Shown piece after piece: positions 4,624-56,788 of a stretch of DNA of 64,000 nt (position 1 is its first letter; the number at the start of each line of letters is the position of its first letter). The notes under the pieces were generated by a model. That model did no database searches, was not told where the DNA came from, and saw only the letters and a list, made by a program, of their open reading frames with translations. The DNA lies in contig CANJMQ010000001.1 of the NCBI GenBank assembly GCA_947475225.1, forward strand, positions 1 to 64,000, read 5' to 3'. Source of the DNA: Bradyrhizobiaceae bacterium. Its GTDB lineage: Bacteria > Pseudomonadota > Alphaproteobacteria > Rhizobiales > Aestuariivirgaceae. A program made the translations under genes and the position numbers.

Positions 4624-4720
4624 TTGAGCCGATTTCCTCTAGTCGAGCAATTGATGCTTCGGCCCCAGTCGGAAGTGCATGTGGATAACGCGGTCTGGTT
4701 GAGTTCATTCTTTGGTAGGG

Positions 4721-4735
4721 TTAATGCCCCGTTAA
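4721..4735. promoter_or_regulatory. CtrA box upstream of ftsE
   Basis: TTAA at 4721-4724, seven bases, then TTAA at 4732-4735 match the full CtrA consensus TTAA-N7-TTAA. The site lies in the hpt/ftsE divergent region, 46 nt before the ftsE start, where a bound response regulator could activate or block the ftsE promoter. Confidence 0.65.
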
Positions 4736-4781
4736 AACTCGGGTGGTTTAACAGTGGCTGGTGGAATGGGGGGACACGCTC

Positions 4782-5438
4782 GTGCTGCGGCTTGAAAATG
4801 TCGGTCTCAGATATGGCGATGGGCCGGAAATCTTGCGTGACGTGAGCTTTGCCGTGCGAACGGGGGATTTCTATTTCCTCACGGGTCCGTCGGGTGCAGG
4901 AAAGTCATCCCTTCTTAAGCTGCTGTTTCTCGCGTTGCGTCCAACGCGGGGAACATTGCGCATCTTTGGTGAAGATGTCGGTAGCCTCAGCCACAGCAAC
5001 TTGCCCACCATCCGCCGGCGCATCGGTGTGGTCTTCCAGGAGTTCAGGCTCCTCGATCATCTCTCGACCTATGACAACGTGGCACTCCCGCTCCGGGTCG
5101 CGGGCAAGTCGGAGTCTTCCTACCGGCGAGACGTGATGGACCTTCTTGACTGGGTTGGGCTTGCCGAAAAATCAGCCGACCTTCCGCCTGTTCTGTCTGG
5201 CGGTGAAAAACAACGGGCAGCAATCGCGCGTGCAGTCATCGCCAAACCGCAATTGCTGCTCGCCGACGAGCCGACCGGAAATGTCGATCCTGTTCTGGCA
5301 AAACGCCTGCTACATCTGTTCCTCGAACTCAATCGCCTCGGTACCACCATGCTGATCGCCACACACGACAAGGGTCTCGTGCGCCAGGCAGAACGCCCGG
5401 TACTGCATCTCGAACAGGGAGCGCTGAACCTGCAATGA
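4782..5438 (+). CDS. ftsE: Cell division ATP-binding protein FtsE
   Basis: 218 aa. This is the ATPase of the FtsEX complex, which links the divisome to septal peptidoglycan hydrolases. Walker A (G-P-S-G-A-G-K-S-S) is at about 35-43, the ABC signature L-S-G-G-E-K-Q-R near 138-145, and Walker B (L-L-L-A-D-E) near 158-163 followed by P-T-G-N-V-D. The GTG at 4782 is chosen because GGGGGGA (4768-4774) lies 7 nt upstream and the product then begins M-L-R-L-E-N-V as in the family; an earlier GTG at 4761 is weaker. It overlaps ftsX by ATGA. Confidence 0.93.
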   Translation: MLRLENVGLRYGDGPEILRDVSFAVRTGDFYFLTGPSGAGKSSLLKLLFLALRPTRGTLRIFGEDVGSLSHSNLPTIRRRIGVVFQEFRLLDHLSTYDNVALPLRVAGKSESSYRRDVMDLLDWVGLAEKSADLPPVLSGGEKQRAAIARAVIAKPQLLLADEPTGNVDPVLAKRLLHLFLELNRLGTTMLIATHDKGLVRQAERPVLHLEQGALNLQ

Positions 5439-35270: not shown

Positions 35271-36134
35271 TTATTTCTGCAGGCGGCGGCAGACGTCTTC
35301 AAGCTGGTCCAGCGTTTTGTAGGTGATCAGCATAGTGCCACTGCCGTCACCCTTGTGGGTAATTTCCAGCTTCAGGCCAATGGCCTCCGAGACGAGTTTC
35401 TCAAGGGCCCGTGTATCAGCATCCTTGTCAGGCTTCGTCTTTGATTTCCTCGTCGTGGATGCACCACGGGCGAGGTTCTCCGCTTCGCGCACCGAAAGGC
35501 CAAGTTTTATGATCTGGGCCGCCAGTTTCGCAGGCGAATCGGTTGCGACAAGCGCACGGGCATGGCCAGCGGTGAGGTGGCCCTGTTCGATCTCGGCGCG
35601 AACGGCCTCCGGGAGGTTCATCAGGCGCAGCGTGTTGGCAATGTGGCTGCGGCTCTTGCCAATCGAGTCCGCAAGCTGCTGCTGGGTGTAGCTGAACTGC
35701 TCGAGCAGCAGTCCATAGGCCCGGGCCTCTTCCAGCGGATTAAGATCCGAGCGCTGGATGTTCTCGATCAGCGCGATCTCAAGTGCCTCGCCATCGGTGA
35801 GGTCGCGGATCAGCACGGGCACGTCGTGAACACCCGCGCGTTGCGCCGCACGCCAGCGCCGCTCACCTGCGACGATTTCATATTCGCCATTGGCAACGGG
35901 TCGCACCACGATGGGTTGGAGAAGCCCTTTCTCGCGTATCGATTTCGAGAGATCTTCGAGGTCGGCTTCGGCGAAGCTCTTGCGTGGATTGTTGGGGCTG
36001 GCCCTCAGCAGGTCGACGGGCATATGACGAAGCGTGCGCAGATCCTGCACCACTGCTTCCTCGCTTGTATCCTCACCGATGAGTGCGGCCAGTCCGCGGC
36101 CAAGCCGCTTCTTCGGGGGGCTGCCCATGTCCAT
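35271..36134 (-). CDS. parB: Chromosome partitioning protein ParB
   Basis: 287 aa. The N-terminal K-R-L-G-R-G-L-A-A-L-I-G box contacts ParA; the N-terminal domain has G-E-R-R-W-R-A-A-Q-R-A-G, the CTP-binding motif, and E-N-I-Q-R-S-D-L-N-P-L-E-E-A; an HTH follows near 145-175 (Q-L-A-D-S-I-G-K-S-R-S-H-I), and the C-terminus dimerises. ParB loads on parS and spreads. The ATG at 36134 has AGGA 6 nt upstream; a second ATG lies at 36128. It is cotranscribed after parA. Confidence 0.93.
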   Translation of the reverse strand: MDMGSPPKKRLGRGLAALIGEDTSEEAVVQDLRTLRHMPVDLLRASPNNPRKSFAEADLEDLSKSIREKGLLQPIVVRPVANGEYEIVAGERRWRAAQRAGVHDVPVLIRDLTDGEALEIALIENIQRSDLNPLEEARAYGLLLEQFSYTQQQLADSIGKSRSHIANTLRLMNLPEAVRAEIEQGHLTAGHARALVATDSPAKLAAQIIKLGLSVREAENLARGASTTRKSKTKPDKDADTRALEKLVSEAIGLKLEITHKGDGSGTMLITYKTLDQLEDVCRRLQK

Positions 36135-36178
36135 GTCTCGTCCTACTCTCTGGATCGTCACTCGTTACGGAATCGAAT

Positions 36179-37012
36179 CTAGGCGGCGCGCAGATCACGC
36201 TCGCGGCGGATGATCTCCGATGCCAGCCGGATATATGCCTGCGAGCCAACGCAGGCATTATCGTAAAGGAGTACCGGCTTGCCGTGCGAGGGTGCCTCGG
36301 AGATGCGCACATTACGCGGTATGACCGTCTGGTAGACCTTGTCGCCCAGCACGCTGCGCACGTCCTCGGCCACCTGTTCGGAAAGATTGTTGCGGCGATC
36401 GAACATGGTCAGGACGACGCCCTGAATGGTCAGGCGCGGATTGAGATTGGCCTTCACCCGTTCCACCGTCTTGATGAGCTGGCTCAGACCCTCGAGTGCG
36501 AAGAACTCGCATTGCAATGGCACCAGAATGGCATCCGCTGCCGACAGCGAGTTGATGGTCAGCAGGTTGAGGGACGGCGGGCAATCAACCAGGACGTAGC
36601 TATAGCTGCGCTCCGGGTCATTCTCCCTGCACAGCTGCGCGATCGCGTCGGCCAGGCGGTAGGTCTTGCGGTCGATGTCGGCGAGTTCGAGTTCGGCACC
36701 CAGTAGATCCATCGTAGAGGGGGCGCAATGAAGGCGCGGGATGCCAGAATCGACGATCACATTGCGCAGCGACGCCTCACCCATCAGCACATGATATGTT
36801 GATTTCTGACCAGCACGGCGATGCACGCCAAGGCCGGTGCTGGCATTGCCTTGCGGGTCCAGGTCAACGATCAGGACCCGCTCGCCCACGGCGGCCAGCG
36901 CCGTGCCGAGGTTGATGGCCGTCGTGGTCTTGCCCACGCCACCCTTCTGGTTGGCAACCGCAAGAATACGCGGGGCCGGAGCAGGTGAACTGCCAGAGAT
37001 CGGATCAGACAC
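36179..37012 (-). CDS. parA: Chromosome partitioning ATPase ParA (Soj)
   Basis: 277 aa. The deviant Walker A K-G-G-V-G-K-T-T-T is near 24-32 and the Walker B-type D-C-P-P-S near 136-140. ParA dimers on the nucleoid pull ParB-parS complexes apart. The GTG at 37012 is used: GAGG lies 6 nt upstream and the longer frame lies in rsmG. It overlaps the rsmG stop by 8 nt, and parB follows 44 nt after its stop. Confidence 0.93.
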   Translation of the reverse strand: MSDPISGSSPAPAPRILAVANQKGGVGKTTTAINLGTALAAVGERVLIVDLDPQGNASTGLGVHRRAGQKSTYHVLMGEASLRNVIVDSGIPRLHCAPSTMDLLGAELELADIDRKTYRLADAIAQLCRENDPERSYSYVLVDCPPSLNLLTINSLSAADAILVPLQCEFFALEGLSQLIKTVERVKANLNPRLTIQGVVLTMFDRRNNLSEQVAEDVRSVLGDKVYQTVIPRNVRISEAPSHGKPVLLYDNACVGSQAYIRLASEIIRRERDLRAA

Positions 37013-37631
37013 GTGAGGCCTCACGAATTTCAAGAATGACACCGCGCGAGTCGCACTGGCTCGCATGTTCGGTGACGGCCATTCTCCAATATTTTGTGGC
37101 TTCGGTCAATTCAGTGTCTACATCTTGTCCCTTGTGAAAGAAGCCAACGGCCCCCCGAGACAGGAATGGTGCCGCGTAATCGAGCAGCAAAGGGAGCGGC
37201 GCCAGGGCTCGTGCCACCACGCATTGTACCTCGGGAAGGTCCGACTGGGCACGCAACGTCTCCAGCCGCACATTATGAACCACCGCCAGCGTGCCCGTTT
37301 GCCGGGCCGCCTCGCGCAGGAAGGCAGCCTTCTTGCCGTTGCTTTCGTAGAGATGGGCCTTGAAGCCACCCGCCATCGCCAGAACGAGACCTGGTATGCC
37401 CGCCCCCGATCCAAGCTCAGCAATCATGCGGGTATCCTTGGGTAAAAGCGGCAACAACTGCAATGCATCGCAGATATGCCGATCCCAGACCGAAGCCACT
37501 GTCGCTGGGCCGATAAGGTTGATGCGCTGTTGCCAGGTAAGCAGCAACCTCACGTAAGTCCTGATCTTGTCTCGTGACTCACGTGAAACATTGAAGCGGT
37601 CGAGTAGGGCTTCGATCTCAAGGTCGGTCAT
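37005..37631 (-). CDS. rsmG: 16S rRNA m7G527 methyltransferase RsmG
   Basis: 208 aa. The SAM motif [11 protein letters not shown] is near residues 75-85. It methylates G527 of 16S rRNA. The ATG at 37631 overlaps the mnmG stop (ATGA). A parS-like sequence is embedded in its N-terminal coding region (37575-37590), as reported for rsmG in other bacteria. It is read with mnmG and parAB. Confidence 0.92.
37575..37590. other. parS-like site inside rsmG
   Basis: The 16 bases TGACTCACGTGAAACA match the bacterial parS consensus TGTTTCACGTGAAACA at 14 positions, differing only at positions 3 and 4. The site falls on codons for N-V-S-R-E-S. It is the second such match near parAB and could be a weaker ParB loading site. 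Confidence 0.6.
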
Positions 37632-39539: not shown

Positions 39540-39555
39540 CGTTTCACGTGAAACA
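39540..39555. other. parS centromere site
   Basis: CGTTTCACGTGAAACA matches the 16-base parS consensus TGTTTCACGTGAAACA at 15 positions, with a perfect 14-base palindrome at 39541-39554. It lies in the 64-nt gap between mnmE and mnmG, 2.5 kb from parA and about 4.4 kb from the predicted origin, where ParB would load. Confidence 0.85.
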
Positions 39556-42331: not shown

Positions 42332-42769
42332 TCAAAACGGCTTGATAATCACGAAAATCACGATGCCCACCAACAACACTGTCGGAATTTCGTTGATGAT
42401 CCGAAAATAACGACCCGACCTTGTCTCACGATCATCCCGGAAGCGCGCAGCATGGACCTCCAGAAGGCCATGGAAAAACAACATGCCGGCCACAAGAACA
42501 AGCTTCAGCCACAGCCACAACGGCATCGGCTGGTCCCAGCCTCCAAGGTGAACGAGGCCTGCTCCCGTCACGACAACAACCAGCGCTGCCGGGCGCATGA
42601 TCGCCTTCAGCAGCCTGCGCTCCATGACCATGAAAACCCCGGAAACATCTTTTTCTCCATCGTTTTCAGCATGATAAACAAACAGCCGCGGCAGGTAGAA
42701 CAAGCCAGCCATCCACGAGATGACAGCAAGAATATGAACAACCTTCACCCAGCCATACGGATCACTCAT
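42332..42769 (-). CDS. hemJ: Protoporphyrinogen oxidase HemJ
   Basis: 145 aa, four membrane segments. The family pattern [21 protein letters not shown] near 9-29 includes the conserved histidine. HemJ oxidises protoporphyrinogen IX in heme synthesis. The ATG at 42769 overlaps the hemE stop by 8 nt, so the two heme genes are coupled. Confidence 0.9.
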
Positions 42770-43808
42770 CGAAGCGCCTGACAGCCTCCACAACAGCGCC
42801 TACAACCGAAGGTTCTGTGCCCAACCTGATCCCATGACCAAGGTTGAAGATGTGCCGCTGCCGATCGACACGCGAACAAATCCGCCGTACCTCGGATGTC
42901 ACCACGTCCGATCCGACGAGCAGAGCCACGGGATCCAGATTACCCTGTACGACGATATCCGTAGACAGGTCAGACAAATCAAATTCCGACTCCAACCCTA
43001 TGGCGTTGGCACCAGCTATGGCTGCAACCTTTCGCTGCGCCATCCCGACACCGCGCGCAAACAGGATCACCGGCAATGCTGGGTGTCGTGACTTCACACC
43101 TGCCACAATTGCCGCCAGCGGCTTCATGACGAAATCCTCAAGTTCAGTGCCAACCAGGTCCCCCGCCCAGGAATCAAACACCTGCACCACCTGCGCGCCC
43201 GCATCGGCCTGAGCCGACAGATAATCGACTGATTCCTTCACCAATCGATCAATCAGCGCACAGAACCACGGCTGGCGCTGGTAGGCAGCGATCTTGGCCA
43301 TCACCCGGTCTGAGCTGCCACCTCCCACCATGTAACTCGCAACAGTCCAGGGCGCTCCGCAGAAGCCGATTAGTGCCAGATGAGGCGCGAGTTGCGCCCG
43401 CGTGAGCTCAACTGTCCGACAGACCTGTTTTACCTCATGAGTACCTGCAACAGGCTTGAGACGATCCAGATCGTCCAAACTGCGCACCGTCCCCAATATG
43501 GGACCTTCCCCCTCAGCGAACTTCAGCGGCAACCCCATGGCGTGAGGTACCACCAGAATGTCTGCAAACAGGATAGCAGCGTCCAGATCATAACGCCGGA
43601 GAGGTTGCAACGTGACTTCGGCGGCAAGATCCGGGTTATAACAAAGATCGAGAAACGAGCCCGCCTTCTCCCGTACCGCACGGTACTCCGGAAGATAGCG
43701 GCCTGCCTGCCGCATGAACCACATCGGGCGCCGTTCGGCCGGTTTCCGGGTCAGAACATCAAGTAATGCACTACGGGATGCCGTGACACCCTTCACTGTC
43801 TCTACCAT
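42762..43808 (-). CDS. hemE: Uroporphyrinogen decarboxylase
   Basis: 348 aa. The enzyme removes four carboxyl groups from uroporphyrinogen III. Its N-terminal R-P-M-W-F-M-R-Q-A-G-R-Y-L-P-E-Y block, including the substrate arginines, is near 25-40, with F-C-G-A-P-W-T near 140. The ATG at 43808 is used; the longer frame enters the origin region. In Caulobacter hemE also borders the replication origin. Confidence 0.95.
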   Translation of the reverse strand: MVETVKGVTASRSALLDVLTRKPAERRPMWFMRQAGRYLPEYRAVREKAGSFLDLCYNPDLAAEVTLQPLRRYDLDAAILFADILVVPHAMGLPLKFAEGEGPILGTVRSLDDLDRLKPVAGTHEVKQVCRTVELTRAQLAPHLALIGFCGAPWTVASYMVGGGSSDRVMAKIAAYQRQPWFCALIDRLVKESVDYLSAQADAGAQVVQVFDSWAGDLVGTELEDFVMKPLAAIVAGVKSRHPALPVILFARGVGMAQRKVAAIAGANAIGLESEFDLSDLSTDIVVQGNLDPVALLVGSDVVTSEVRRICSRVDRQRHIFNLGHGIRLGTEPSVVGAVVEAVRRFDE

Positions 43809-43920
43809 TCTGACTCTTCTTGTCTCTTTTGTTTGAACCTTGGAAAGCGGGATACAACCCAATCCAATGATCGTCCACAGGTCAAGTGCATCCTCGATCC
43901 AAAGATGTCACCAGTCCTGG

Positions 43921-43935
43921 TTAATCTGAAATTAA
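43921..43935. promoter_or_regulatory. CtrA box 1 in the origin
   Basis: TTAA at 43921-43924, seven bases, TTAA at 43932-43935: a full CtrA site. Bound CtrA would be expected to block DnaA-driven initiation here or to modulate the hemE promoter. Confidence 0.75.
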
Positions 43936-43941
43936 CACGTG

Positions 43942-43956
43942 TTAACAGACCGTTAA
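43942..43956. promoter_or_regulatory. CtrA box 2 in the origin
   Basis: TTAA at 43942-43945, seven bases, TTAA at 43953-43956: a second full CtrA site, 21 nt (two helical turns) from the first. The facing placement fits cooperative binding. Confidence 0.75.
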
Positions 43957-44130
43957 TGCACTACAACAAGCCCGGTTAAAGACCCTGACAGACCTGATCT
44001 CATCACCTTCTCCACATGCTTTTCCTGGCCCTCTCTGTTTCGTTCGGTTTGTGGATGGGGACCGGGATAAGTCGGAAAGAGTCACCGCTTGCCCTTCGGA
44101 TCTCCAAGTCATCCACATATACTCAACACC

Positions 44131-44967
44131 ATGTCAAACGCCGGTTCACAGCGCTACTTCCATCTCCATCTCGTGTCCGATGCCACGGGCGAGACGCTGA
44201 ACACCGTCGCCAAGGCGGCTGCGGCGCAATATTCGGACTTCCGCCCGATTGCTCACATCTATGCCCTCGTCAGGACACCTTCGCAACTCAACCGCGCGCT
44301 CCGCGAGATCGAGGAACAGCCTGGTATCGTGCTGTTCACACTCATCAATCCGGATATTCGTCGTCATCTTGAAGAACAATGCGAGGCAATGGGTGTTCCC
44401 TGCCTGTCGATCCTCGATCCGATCATCTCAATTCTCTCACAATATCTGAATGCCGCGTCGCGGCCCCAGGTCGGTGGTCAGCATGCGTTGAATTCCGATT
44501 ATTTCCGCCGCATCGATGCCCTGAACTACACCATGTCGCACGATGATGGACAGAACATCGACGATCTCGAAAAGGCCGACATCGTCATCCTCGGCGTCAG
44601 TCGAACGTCTAAGACGCCGACGTCCATCTATCTCGCACAACGAGGTATTCGGACGGCCAATATTCCCATTGTACCCGGTATTCCTGTTCCGCAGAAACTG
44701 ATCAACCTCAAGGGTCCGCTGATCGTCGGTCTCATTGCCAGTGCGGAGCGTATCGCGCAGATCCGGCGGCACCGGTTACTCTCCTTGAAGGAGAGCCGCT
44801 CAACGGATTATATCGATCCCCGGCAGATTACCGATGAACTGATGGTGATGAAGAAACTTTGCTCCACCAATGACTGGCCGATCATCGATGTGACACGACG
44901 CTCCGTGGAGGAAATCGCCGCCACCATCCTCAACATGCTCTCAGACAACAAGCGTATCGACAAGTGA
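44131..44967 (+). CDS. ppsR: Pyruvate,phosphate dikinase regulatory protein (kinase/phosphorylase)
   Basis: 278 aa. The DUF299 family member; the G-V-S-R-T-S-K-T-P-T-S P-loop-like motif is near residues 155-165. It phosphorylates and dephosphorylates PPDK or PEP synthase with ADP and phosphate, gating the pyruvate-PEP interconversion. The ATG at 44131 begins M-S-N-A-G-S-Q; earlier codons lie in the origin. maf follows after 1 nt. Confidence 0.92.
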   Translation: MSNAGSQRYFHLHLVSDATGETLNTVAKAAAAQYSDFRPIAHIYALVRTPSQLNRALREIEEQPGIVLFTLINPDIRRHLEEQCEAMGVPCLSILDPIISILSQYLNAASRPQVGGQHALNSDYFRRIDALNYTMSHDDGQNIDDLEKADIVILGVSRTSKTPTSIYLAQRGIRTANIPIVPGIPVPQKLINLKGPLIVGLIASAERIAQIRRHRLLSLKESRSTDYIDPRQITDELMVMKKLCSTNDWPIIDVTRRSVEEIAATILNMLSDNKRIDK

Positions 44968-44968
44968 C

Positions 44969-45553
44969 ATGATTGTTCTCGCCTCCACAAGCGCAACACG
45001 CCAATCAATACTTCGCAACGCCGGCCTCCATTTCGAAGCGGAATCACCAAACGTTGACGAAAAGGCGCTTGTCGCCGCCAATCCGCAATGGTTGCCGCGC
45101 GAGATTGCGATCAAGCTTGCCGAAGCGAAGGCCTGTGATGTGTCGATGCGGCGTGCCGGTGCTGTCGTCATCGGTGCTGATCAGGTGCTGGCTCTTGGCG
45201 ATCGAGTCCTTGGAAAGCCGCATGACCGCGCTCATTGCCGCGAGCAGTTATGCCACTTGCGCGGCCATGCCCACGCATTGATCTCGGCCGTTGCAATTGC
45301 GCGAGATGGCCAGGTTATCTGGACCTACCATGATGAAGCATCGCTTCTCATGCGTGACTACAGCGAGGATTTTCTTGATACCTATCTTGATGCCATCGGT
45401 GATGATTGCACAAGCTCGGTTGGTGGATACAAGATTGAGGGGCGCGGCGTGCAGCTTTTCAAGTCCGTTTCTGGCGACCATTTTACCATCCTCGGATTGC
45501 CACTGGTGCCAGTGCTTGAGAAGCTGCGCGAGATGGAGGAGATCCCCTCATGA
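44969..45553 (+). CDS. maf: Maf-like nucleotide pyrophosphatase
   Basis: 194 aa. The opening L-A-S-T-S-A-T-R and S-P-N-V-D-E are typical, with G-A-D-Q-V-L near 68-73 carrying the catalytic aspartate. Members hydrolyse nonstandard or modified nucleoside triphosphates, probably 7-methyl-GTP in the YceF branch. It follows ppsR by 1 nt and overlaps aroE by 4 nt. Confidence 0.9.
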   Translation: MIVLASTSATRQSILRNAGLHFEAESPNVDEKALVAANPQWLPREIAIKLAEAKACDVSMRRAGAVVIGADQVLALGDRVLGKPHDRAHCREQLCHLRGHAHALISAVAIARDGQVIWTYHDEASLLMRDYSEDFLDTYLDAIGDDCTSSVGGYKIEGRGVQLFKSVSGDHFTILGLPLVPVLEKLREMEEIPS

Positions 45554-56009: not shown

Positions 56010-56788
56010 TGCTCAAGGCCCGGCTCATTCCCTGCCTTGACGTGAAGGATGGCCGCGTCGTCAAGGGCGTCAATTTCGTCGATCTGCGCGATGCGGGAGA
56101 TCCCGTCGAAATTGCCAAGGCCTATGATGCGGCGGGAGCGGACGAACTCTGCTTTCTCGACATTGCCGCCACACATGAAAACCGCGGCATTATCTTAGAC
56201 GTGGTGCAGCAGACGGCAGAGGCTTGCTTTATGCCGCTGACGGTTGGCGGCGGCGTGAGGACGCTTGAGGATATCCGCAAGCTGTTGCTGGCTGGCGCCG
56301 ACAAGGTGTCGATCAATTCCGCTGCCGTTGCCAGCCGTGATTTCGTGCGGCAGGCGGCCGAGAAATTCGGTGCGCAATGCGTGGTCGTCGCCATCGACGC
56401 CAAGTCTGTGTCCCCTGGCAAATGGGAAATCTTCACCCATGGTGGCCGCAAGCCCACCGGCATTGACGCGGTGGCGTTTGCGCGTGACGTCACCTCGCTT
56501 GGGGCTGGCGAGATCCTGCTGACCTCAATGGACCGCGACGGCACCGGCAAGGGCTTTGACATCGAACTCACGCGAACCATTGCTGATGCCGTTCCCGTGC
56601 CTGTCATTGCCTCAGGGGGCGTGGGTACGCTCGATCACCTCGTCGATGGCATCCGCAATGGTCATGCGGCGGCAGTGCTCGCGGCATCGATCTTCCACTT
56701 CGGTACTTTTTCCATCGGCGAGGCCAAGCGGCATCTCTCGGCTGCCGGTATTCCTATGCGGATCAATGAGGACGACGCTCATGACTGA
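56009..56788 (+). CDS. hisF: Imidazole glycerol phosphate synthase, cyclase subunit
   Basis: 259 aa. TIM barrel with [11 protein letters not shown] near 9-19, catalytic Asp in T-S-M-D-R-D-G near 171-177, and A-S-G-G-V near 200-204. With HisH it makes IGP and AICAR. It overlaps hisE by 8 nt. Confidence 0.95.

Follow-up and report, generated by a model that had tools for sequence, protein, structure and literature searches.

The 64,000-nucleotide stretch of alphaproteobacterial DNA analysed here (the window; bases 1-64000 of a 142,639-bp contig in a 177-contig, 4.10-Mb draft genome that is 87.8% complete) carries a 322-bp gap between the divergent genes hemE and ppsR (positions 43809..44130), which is very probably the chromosomal replication origin of an Aestuariivirga-like alphaproteobacterium. 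Taken as a whole, its features are best explained, in a reading we hold with good confidence, by an origin (oriC) at which DnaA would load and a pair of phosphorylated CtrA assemblies would hold the origin shut. An original prediction, made from the letters of the window, had named the gap as a probable origin, and this is supported by gene context, motif clustering, the footprints found in the gaps of relatives, a parS-like site and parAB genes nearby, and replichore symmetry in relatives. Since the encoded PpsR is, among the matches listed, 93% identical to that of the Aestuariivirga metagenome-assembled genome M165S2SP2A41QC and 94% identical to that of Aestuariivirga litoralis KCTC 52945, we take the host to be an Aestuariivirga-like member of the Hyphomicrobiales, in a family described as branching off early within the Rhizobiales (PMC8555084).

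Origins flanked by hemE and COG1806 have been published for Caulobacter and Rickettsia (PMC1914354), so a hemE-linked origin is in itself of a known kind and, because that kind is so well known from Caulobacter, locating one here is ordinary. What is less expected is a conserved, phased pair of CtrA sites over the unwinding element, an arrangement seldom reported at origins of this group; judged by titles and the openings of abstracts, we found no description of a phased CtrA pair in Hyphomicrobiales, and one may be in print elsewhere.

A phased pair of predicted CtrA sites over the least stable DNA

Two predicted full CtrA sites, TTAATCTGAAATTAA (43921..43935) and TTAACAGACCGTTAA (43942..43956), lie in the gap, roughly 112 bp away from hemE and 174 bp away from ppsR. 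Both are conserved, perfect matches to TTAA-N7-TTAA, and the second starts 21 bp after the first, leaving between them a CACGTG spacer (43936..43941) whose length is kept in relatives; in the window's own genome TTAACACGTGTTAA (43932-43945) forms a perfect palindrome. Only 0.02 copies of TTAA-N7-TTAA would be expected in the whole 64 kb, whereas the gap alone has two, with one more at 4721, and none of 3000 Markov resamplings of the gap reached two. The presence of two full sites proved to be the strongest item on the original prediction's list.

The least stable 50-mer of positions 43501-44500, which ranks in the top 0.27% of the window, is a candidate unwinding element at 43921..43970, and because it starts at the first base of the first CtrA site, the pair covers the likely unwinding element. 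The guanine-plus-cytosine (GC) content of the gap is 0.48, against 0.55-0.56 in the surrounding 2-kb segments and about 0.60 in the greater part of the window. No DnaA box is overlapped by the CtrA pair, the nearest being at least 41 bp away. Both proteins are encoded in the window's own genome (G000), DnaA on contig G000:C7 and, on G000:C36, a CtrA-like protein with 86% identity to Caulobacter CtrA over 202 amino acids.

Predicted DnaA boxes and minor motifs

As the original prediction had claimed, the gap holds several motifs resembling DnaA boxes. Four copies of TCCACA (43874 plus, 44011 plus, 44050 minus and 44112 plus) form the densest cluster of this motif in the window, with P of about 0.0007 for four in 322 bp (3000 first-order Markov resamplings of the gap); window-wide the motif is not enriched (24 found against 30 expected). 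The predicted boxes built on these cores are TCGTCCACA (43871..43879, plus strand), within a conserved block next to hemE; TTCTCCACA (44008..44016, plus), whose third base departs from the Caulobacter consensus; CCATCCACA (44050..44058, minus); and TCATCCACA (44109..44117, plus), near the start of ppsR. Three of the four, the first among them, match the Caulobacter DnaA consensus, [TC][TCG][AG]TCCACA (PMC2877005). At the position of the 44008 box several relatives carry TTGTCCACA and one (L008) carries the strict box TTATCCACA, and several have a second ATCCACA 3' of the box at 44109..44117. The box at 43871..43879 adjoins GGTCAAG (CTTGACC on the minus strand), which most close relatives keep. 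This conserved block may, at a guess, be the hemE promoter; a scan of 43600-44300 found no sigma-70-like promoter and no terminator, and alphaproteobacterial promoters may escape such a scan.

Other motifs are weaker. Four boxes in the gap come within two mismatches of TTATCCACA (P of 0.02), as do four near 56154. The W-box-like TCCCCA on the minus strand (44056..44061) and the GANTC sites that had been named earlier are indeed present, the former as a single match that is missing in most relatives (TCCCCA occurs nowhere in 10 of the 12 gaps L003-L014) and the latter as two copies where simple arithmetic predicts about 1.3. Being near chance level or not conserved, both were rejected as evidence for an origin.

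Elsewhere in the window, a strict TTATCCACA box on the minus strand at 4680 lies 32 bp from the full CtrA site at 4721. This segment (4680-4735) adjoins an ABC-transporter gene (4761-5438), is close to a low-GC stretch, and may be a second target of CtrA and DnaA.

Conservation of the gap within the genus

A search of 61 genomes, the window's own included, gave a PpsR match in 36 and a HemE match in 59. In all 15 same-genus genomes with PpsR, again counting the window, hemE and ppsR are divergent neighbours. Both full CtrA sites occur at the 21-bp distance in 8 of these 15 gaps, one full site together with one-mismatch sites in 4, and no full site in 3. Column identity was computed over 11 of the 13 aligned gaps, excluding the two most divergent (L012 and L014), and averaged 98% for the 16 TTAA columns, 79% for the N7 spacers, 80% for the N6 spacer, 84% for the DnaA boxes and 64% for the remainder; the TTAA mean was reached by none of 20,000 random draws of 16 columns. 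The block next to hemE (43809-43888) is well conserved too, and the N7-N6-N7 spacing is kept as far as L013, whose PpsR is 72% identical to that of the window. The exact 36-bp array TTAA-N7-TTAA-N6-TTAA-N7-TTAA was sought in three genomes (G000, G017 and G001); each has a single copy, which lies in the hemE-ppsR gap, and a reversed-pattern control for the array gave no matches.

Many genomes labelled as the same genus have no PpsR match. Among the 19 loci L043-L061, 15 are without ppsR and have hemE directly beside maf, separated by a gap of 269-360 bp (three of the remaining loci keep ppsR and one is cut at a contig end). Of these hemE-maf gaps, 11 of 15 contain a strict TTATCCACA box and 7 of 15 a full CtrA site, so a box-bearing gap persists at hemE when ppsR is absent.

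CtrA sites at hemE across the Hyphomicrobiales

With up to one mismatch allowed, the 36-bp array is found in at least 97 of 397 genomes of the order. Thirty array loci, a non-random draw (L227-L256), were fetched, and 17 of them have hemE within 1.5 kb. In G160, G187 and G394 the array precedes the aligned hemE start by 158-194 bp (158 and 186 bp in G187 and G394, with one mismatch each), and in total it was found at hemE in 20 genomes from five families, f1 (the window's own), f5, f6, f27 and f44. In family f44 a perfect array also stands at a place without hemE (L246, L249 and L250). Given such copies away from hemE, and hemE in only 17 of the 30 fetched loci, the idea that the array is specific to origins was rejected.

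A separate hemE-anchored sample comprised 97 genomes from 37 families, picked from the better HemE matches so as to cover many families; it leaves out the Aestuariivirga genus loci and f44, one of its gaps is cut to 85 bp, and it includes G187 and G394, whose arrays had been known beforehand. At least one full CtrA site lies within 450 bp upstream of hemE in 30 of these 97 gaps, compared with 0.47 on average and never more than 3 in 60 resamplings, and with 2 of 97 in the next 250 bp beyond. Setting aside G187 and G394 leaves 28 of 95, from 14 of the 37 families. Since 67 of the 97 gaps have no full site, the feature is patchy. In a different set of loci, all seven Mesorhizobium gaps (L108, L115, L120, L130, L131, L134 and L139) are without one.

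The 21-bp array at up to two mismatches is present in 7 of the 97 gaps (5 of 95 without G187 and G394), against 0.07 expected for 97, making 21 bp the commonest of 46 spacings, ahead of 46 and 57 bp with five genomes each. This lead is thin, at five genomes to four each for 28 and 46 bp once G187 and G394 are removed, and the sample has no exact pair at 21 bp, the exact pairs being spaced at 11, 32, 35, 40, 46, 56, 57 and 290 bp; we therefore rejected 21 bp as the sole CtrA spacing.

Replichore polarity in relatives

Since the window's own chromosome is a draft with flat contig skew, we turned to single-contig relatives and to the polarity of the octamer GGGNAGGG, which we take to be the FtsK-orienting sequence. 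In three such relatives (G055, G187 and G394) the polarity switches on the terminus side where predicted. In G055, divided into 40 stretches of 20 kb, polarity is positive over 0.225-1.48 Mb and negative over 1.575-3.62 Mb, and the antipode of the hemE gap lies at 1.524 Mb. For G187, the stretches to be read were fixed in advance around the predicted antipode (1.697 Mb), and they confine the flip to the 40 kb from 1.68 to 1.72 Mb; GC skew mostly agrees with the octamer there, being positive in 6 of 7 stretches ahead of the flip and negative in 6 of 7 beyond it. The six stretches read in G394 put the flip between 3.62 and 4.00 Mb, for a predicted antipode of 3.870 Mb.

Only in G187 were GC skew and octamer polarity concordant. 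Skew is flat in the window's own contig and in 12 stretches of a 505-kb contig of G017, and is discordant with the octamer in G027 and G394, and it was therefore rejected as an origin locator. Within the window, cumulative skew falls at 42-46 kb yet is lower still at the 64-kb end, so it neither supports nor refutes an origin in the gap. Near the origin, the octamer itself occurs too seldom in G000 and G017 to settle the matter.

Several results weigh against placing the origin in the gap. On the window's own 142-kb contig, GC skew is near zero to the left (-0.002) and right (-0.004) of the gap, and the octamer counts, too few to be telling, are 2 plus and 5 minus on the left and 5 plus and 2 minus on the right. 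The origin-side switch of G055 is blurred; its best fit, at 3.60-3.64 or at 3.68-3.70 Mb, lies close to 3.77 Mb without reaching it and beats a switch placed there by about 3 log units. In G394 a stretch at 2.2 Mb is neutral (2 plus, 3 minus) and GC skew does not follow the polarity, while the draft genome G027, which is no more than compatible with the origin at hemE, has a flip on the terminus side alone, with GC skew again not following. An exact scan of the gap found no strict TTATCCACA box, and an exact search with one IHF-type consensus gave no match, a point on which the gap may differ from the Caulobacter crescentus origin (Cori). It has been pointed out that not every origin element need occur in each genome (PMC1914354). 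From the lack of a strict box the original prediction had concluded that the initiator sites were divergent; the lack stands, but because three of the four boxes fit the Caulobacter consensus, "divergent" is too strong a word.

A one-mismatch copy of the array in G027 (L230; G027:C1:798837-798872) lies inside the interval of the polarity flip, 680-880 kb, near the likely terminus of that genome, which may be a coincidence.

Proposed mechanism and alternatives

In the mechanism that we propose, the four boxes (43871, 44008, 44050 and 44109) would be the loading sites from which DnaA melts the AT-rich DNA around 43921-43970. Phosphorylated CtrA would bind the full sites at 43921 and 43942, thereby covering the segment that must melt. 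Site starts 21 bp apart correspond to two helical turns, so two CtrA dimers could be neighbours on the same face of the helix, where their occupancy may be cooperative, and only the removal or dephosphorylation of CtrA would release the origin. In Caulobacter, CtrA is believed to keep DnaA away by steric exclusion (PMC4468827); given the distance between the pair and the nearest box, blocked melting would be the likelier mode here.

The alternative that survives best accepts the origin and gives the paired TTAA sites a function other than repression: they could regulate transcription of hemE or ppsR, or serve simply as an AT-rich repeat for unwinding, to which DnaA or another protein binds. 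CtrA does also act as a transcription factor, hemE transcription in Caulobacter matters for replication and is CtrA-repressible (PMC8959179), the pair sits in the least stable DNA, and lowering CtrA affinity at all five Caulobacter origin sites caused only a mild perturbation of replication in the laboratory (PMC4468827). Against this, the N7-N6-N7 spacing, kept as far as L013, would be superfluous in a plain AT-rich repeat, and the pair is more than 100 bp from either gene, with no sigma-70-like promoter in the scanned interval, where alphaproteobacterial ones may have been missed. On balance we consider a role other than repression unlikely.

Much less probable still is that the gap is only a divergent promoter region controlled by CtrA and DnaA, with the origin elsewhere. 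The draft state of the window's own genome, which gives no skew test, leaves room for this, as do the arrays away from hemE (L246, L249 and L250) and the fact that hemE was not found in 29 of 110 loci (some of them cut by contig ends), which means that the hemE-ppsR linkage is not universal. A mere promoter region is at odds, however, with antipodal polarity flips in three single-contig relatives, with the persistence of boxes, strict TTATCCACA in 11 of 15, in hemE-maf gaps where ppsR is missing, and with the parS-like site and parAB nearby. Chance clustering in an AT-rich gap, which would suit the W-box and GANTC counts and the P of only 0.02 for two-mismatch boxes, can be dismissed as highly improbable in view of the resamplings of the gap, TTAA columns conserved far above background, and full sites in 30 of 97 hemE-anchored gaps where resampling gave at most 3.

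Beyond the repressed origin proposed for the window itself, we advance tentatively that the 36-bp element could be dedicated to CtrA as a lock on the unwinding region; it would be either ancestral to the Hyphomicrobiales or have arisen there more than once, with loss in the lines of the model species. If so, Aestuariivirga and a number of other families have retained the lock, and replication would be under direct CtrA control widely, if unevenly, across an order in whose model species such control is absent. With the phased pair in part of the family and full sites in 30 of the 97 gaps, gain and loss of such control become testable, for example in cultured species such as Aestuariivirga litoralis.

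Comparison with known origins

Like Cori, the gap is flanked by hemE and a COG1806 (DUF299) gene and has an AT-rich stretch, boxes that fit the Caulobacter DnaA consensus, full TTAA-N7-TTAA sites, and a parS-like site and parAB within 10 kb. The layout of the CtrA sites differs. Cori has five along the origin (PMC1914354), overlapping or adjoining DnaA boxes, and a Caulobacteraceae gap in our own set (L137) has three full sites with starts 170 and 209 bp apart, whereas here two sites stand in tight 21-bp phase over the candidate unwinding element, clear of every box.

CtrA at origins is not new outside Caulobacter either. The Rickettsia prowazekii origin, between RP885 (hemE) and RP001, has the same flanks and reported CtrA sites (PMC1914354, PMC4468827), although it belongs to a distant lineage with an AT-rich genome. 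Predicted origins of Wolbachia, Ehrlichia and Anaplasma are also hemE-linked, with CtrA, DnaA and IHF sites found in silico, but have a different boundary gene (COG1253) and from zero to seven predicted CtrA sites (PMC1914354). In Hyphomonas neptunium (Caulobacterales), chromatin immunoprecipitation sequencing places CtrA at a site next to the origin (PMC7200025). Within the same order as the window, the origin of Sinorhizobium meliloti is described as having no CtrA sites (PMC4433202), unlike the gap with its two; ctrA knockouts fail or grow badly in that species too (PMC8116508).

Gene neighbourhood

The gap is bounded by the ATG of hemE (43808, minus strand) and that of ppsR (44131, plus strand); an alternative upstream hemE start (TTG, 43862) is possible and would shorten it. 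Genes on both sides point away from it, as had been noted before, and family matches from NCBIfam agree with the names then given. To the left, all on the minus strand, are hemE (uroporphyrinogen decarboxylase; 42762..43808, TIGR01464), hemJ, rho, mnmE, mnmG, rsmG (98.6 bits, slightly below the cut-off of 99.5), a ParA-like ATPase gene (36179..37066; best family match below the curated cut-off) and parB of the ParB/RepB/Spo0J family (35271..36161, TIGR00180). To the right, on the plus strand, follow ppsR (COG1806/DUF299 kinase/pyrophosphorylase; 44131..44967, NF003742), a maf-like gene (44969..45553, TIGR00172), aroE, coaE and dnaQ, and then secB on the minus strand.

Two parS-like palindromes lie 4-6 kb from the candidate origin. 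The better one, CGTTTCACGTGAAACA (39540..39555), has one mismatch to the consensus and stands between mnmG and mnmE, 4.3 kb from the gap, with parAB beyond; the weaker, TGACTCACGTGAAACA (37575..37590), has two mismatches and is near the mnmG-rsmG junction. At the far left of the window, an open reading frame at 1509-2030 matches siphovirus Gp157 (PF05565) and may be a phage remnant.
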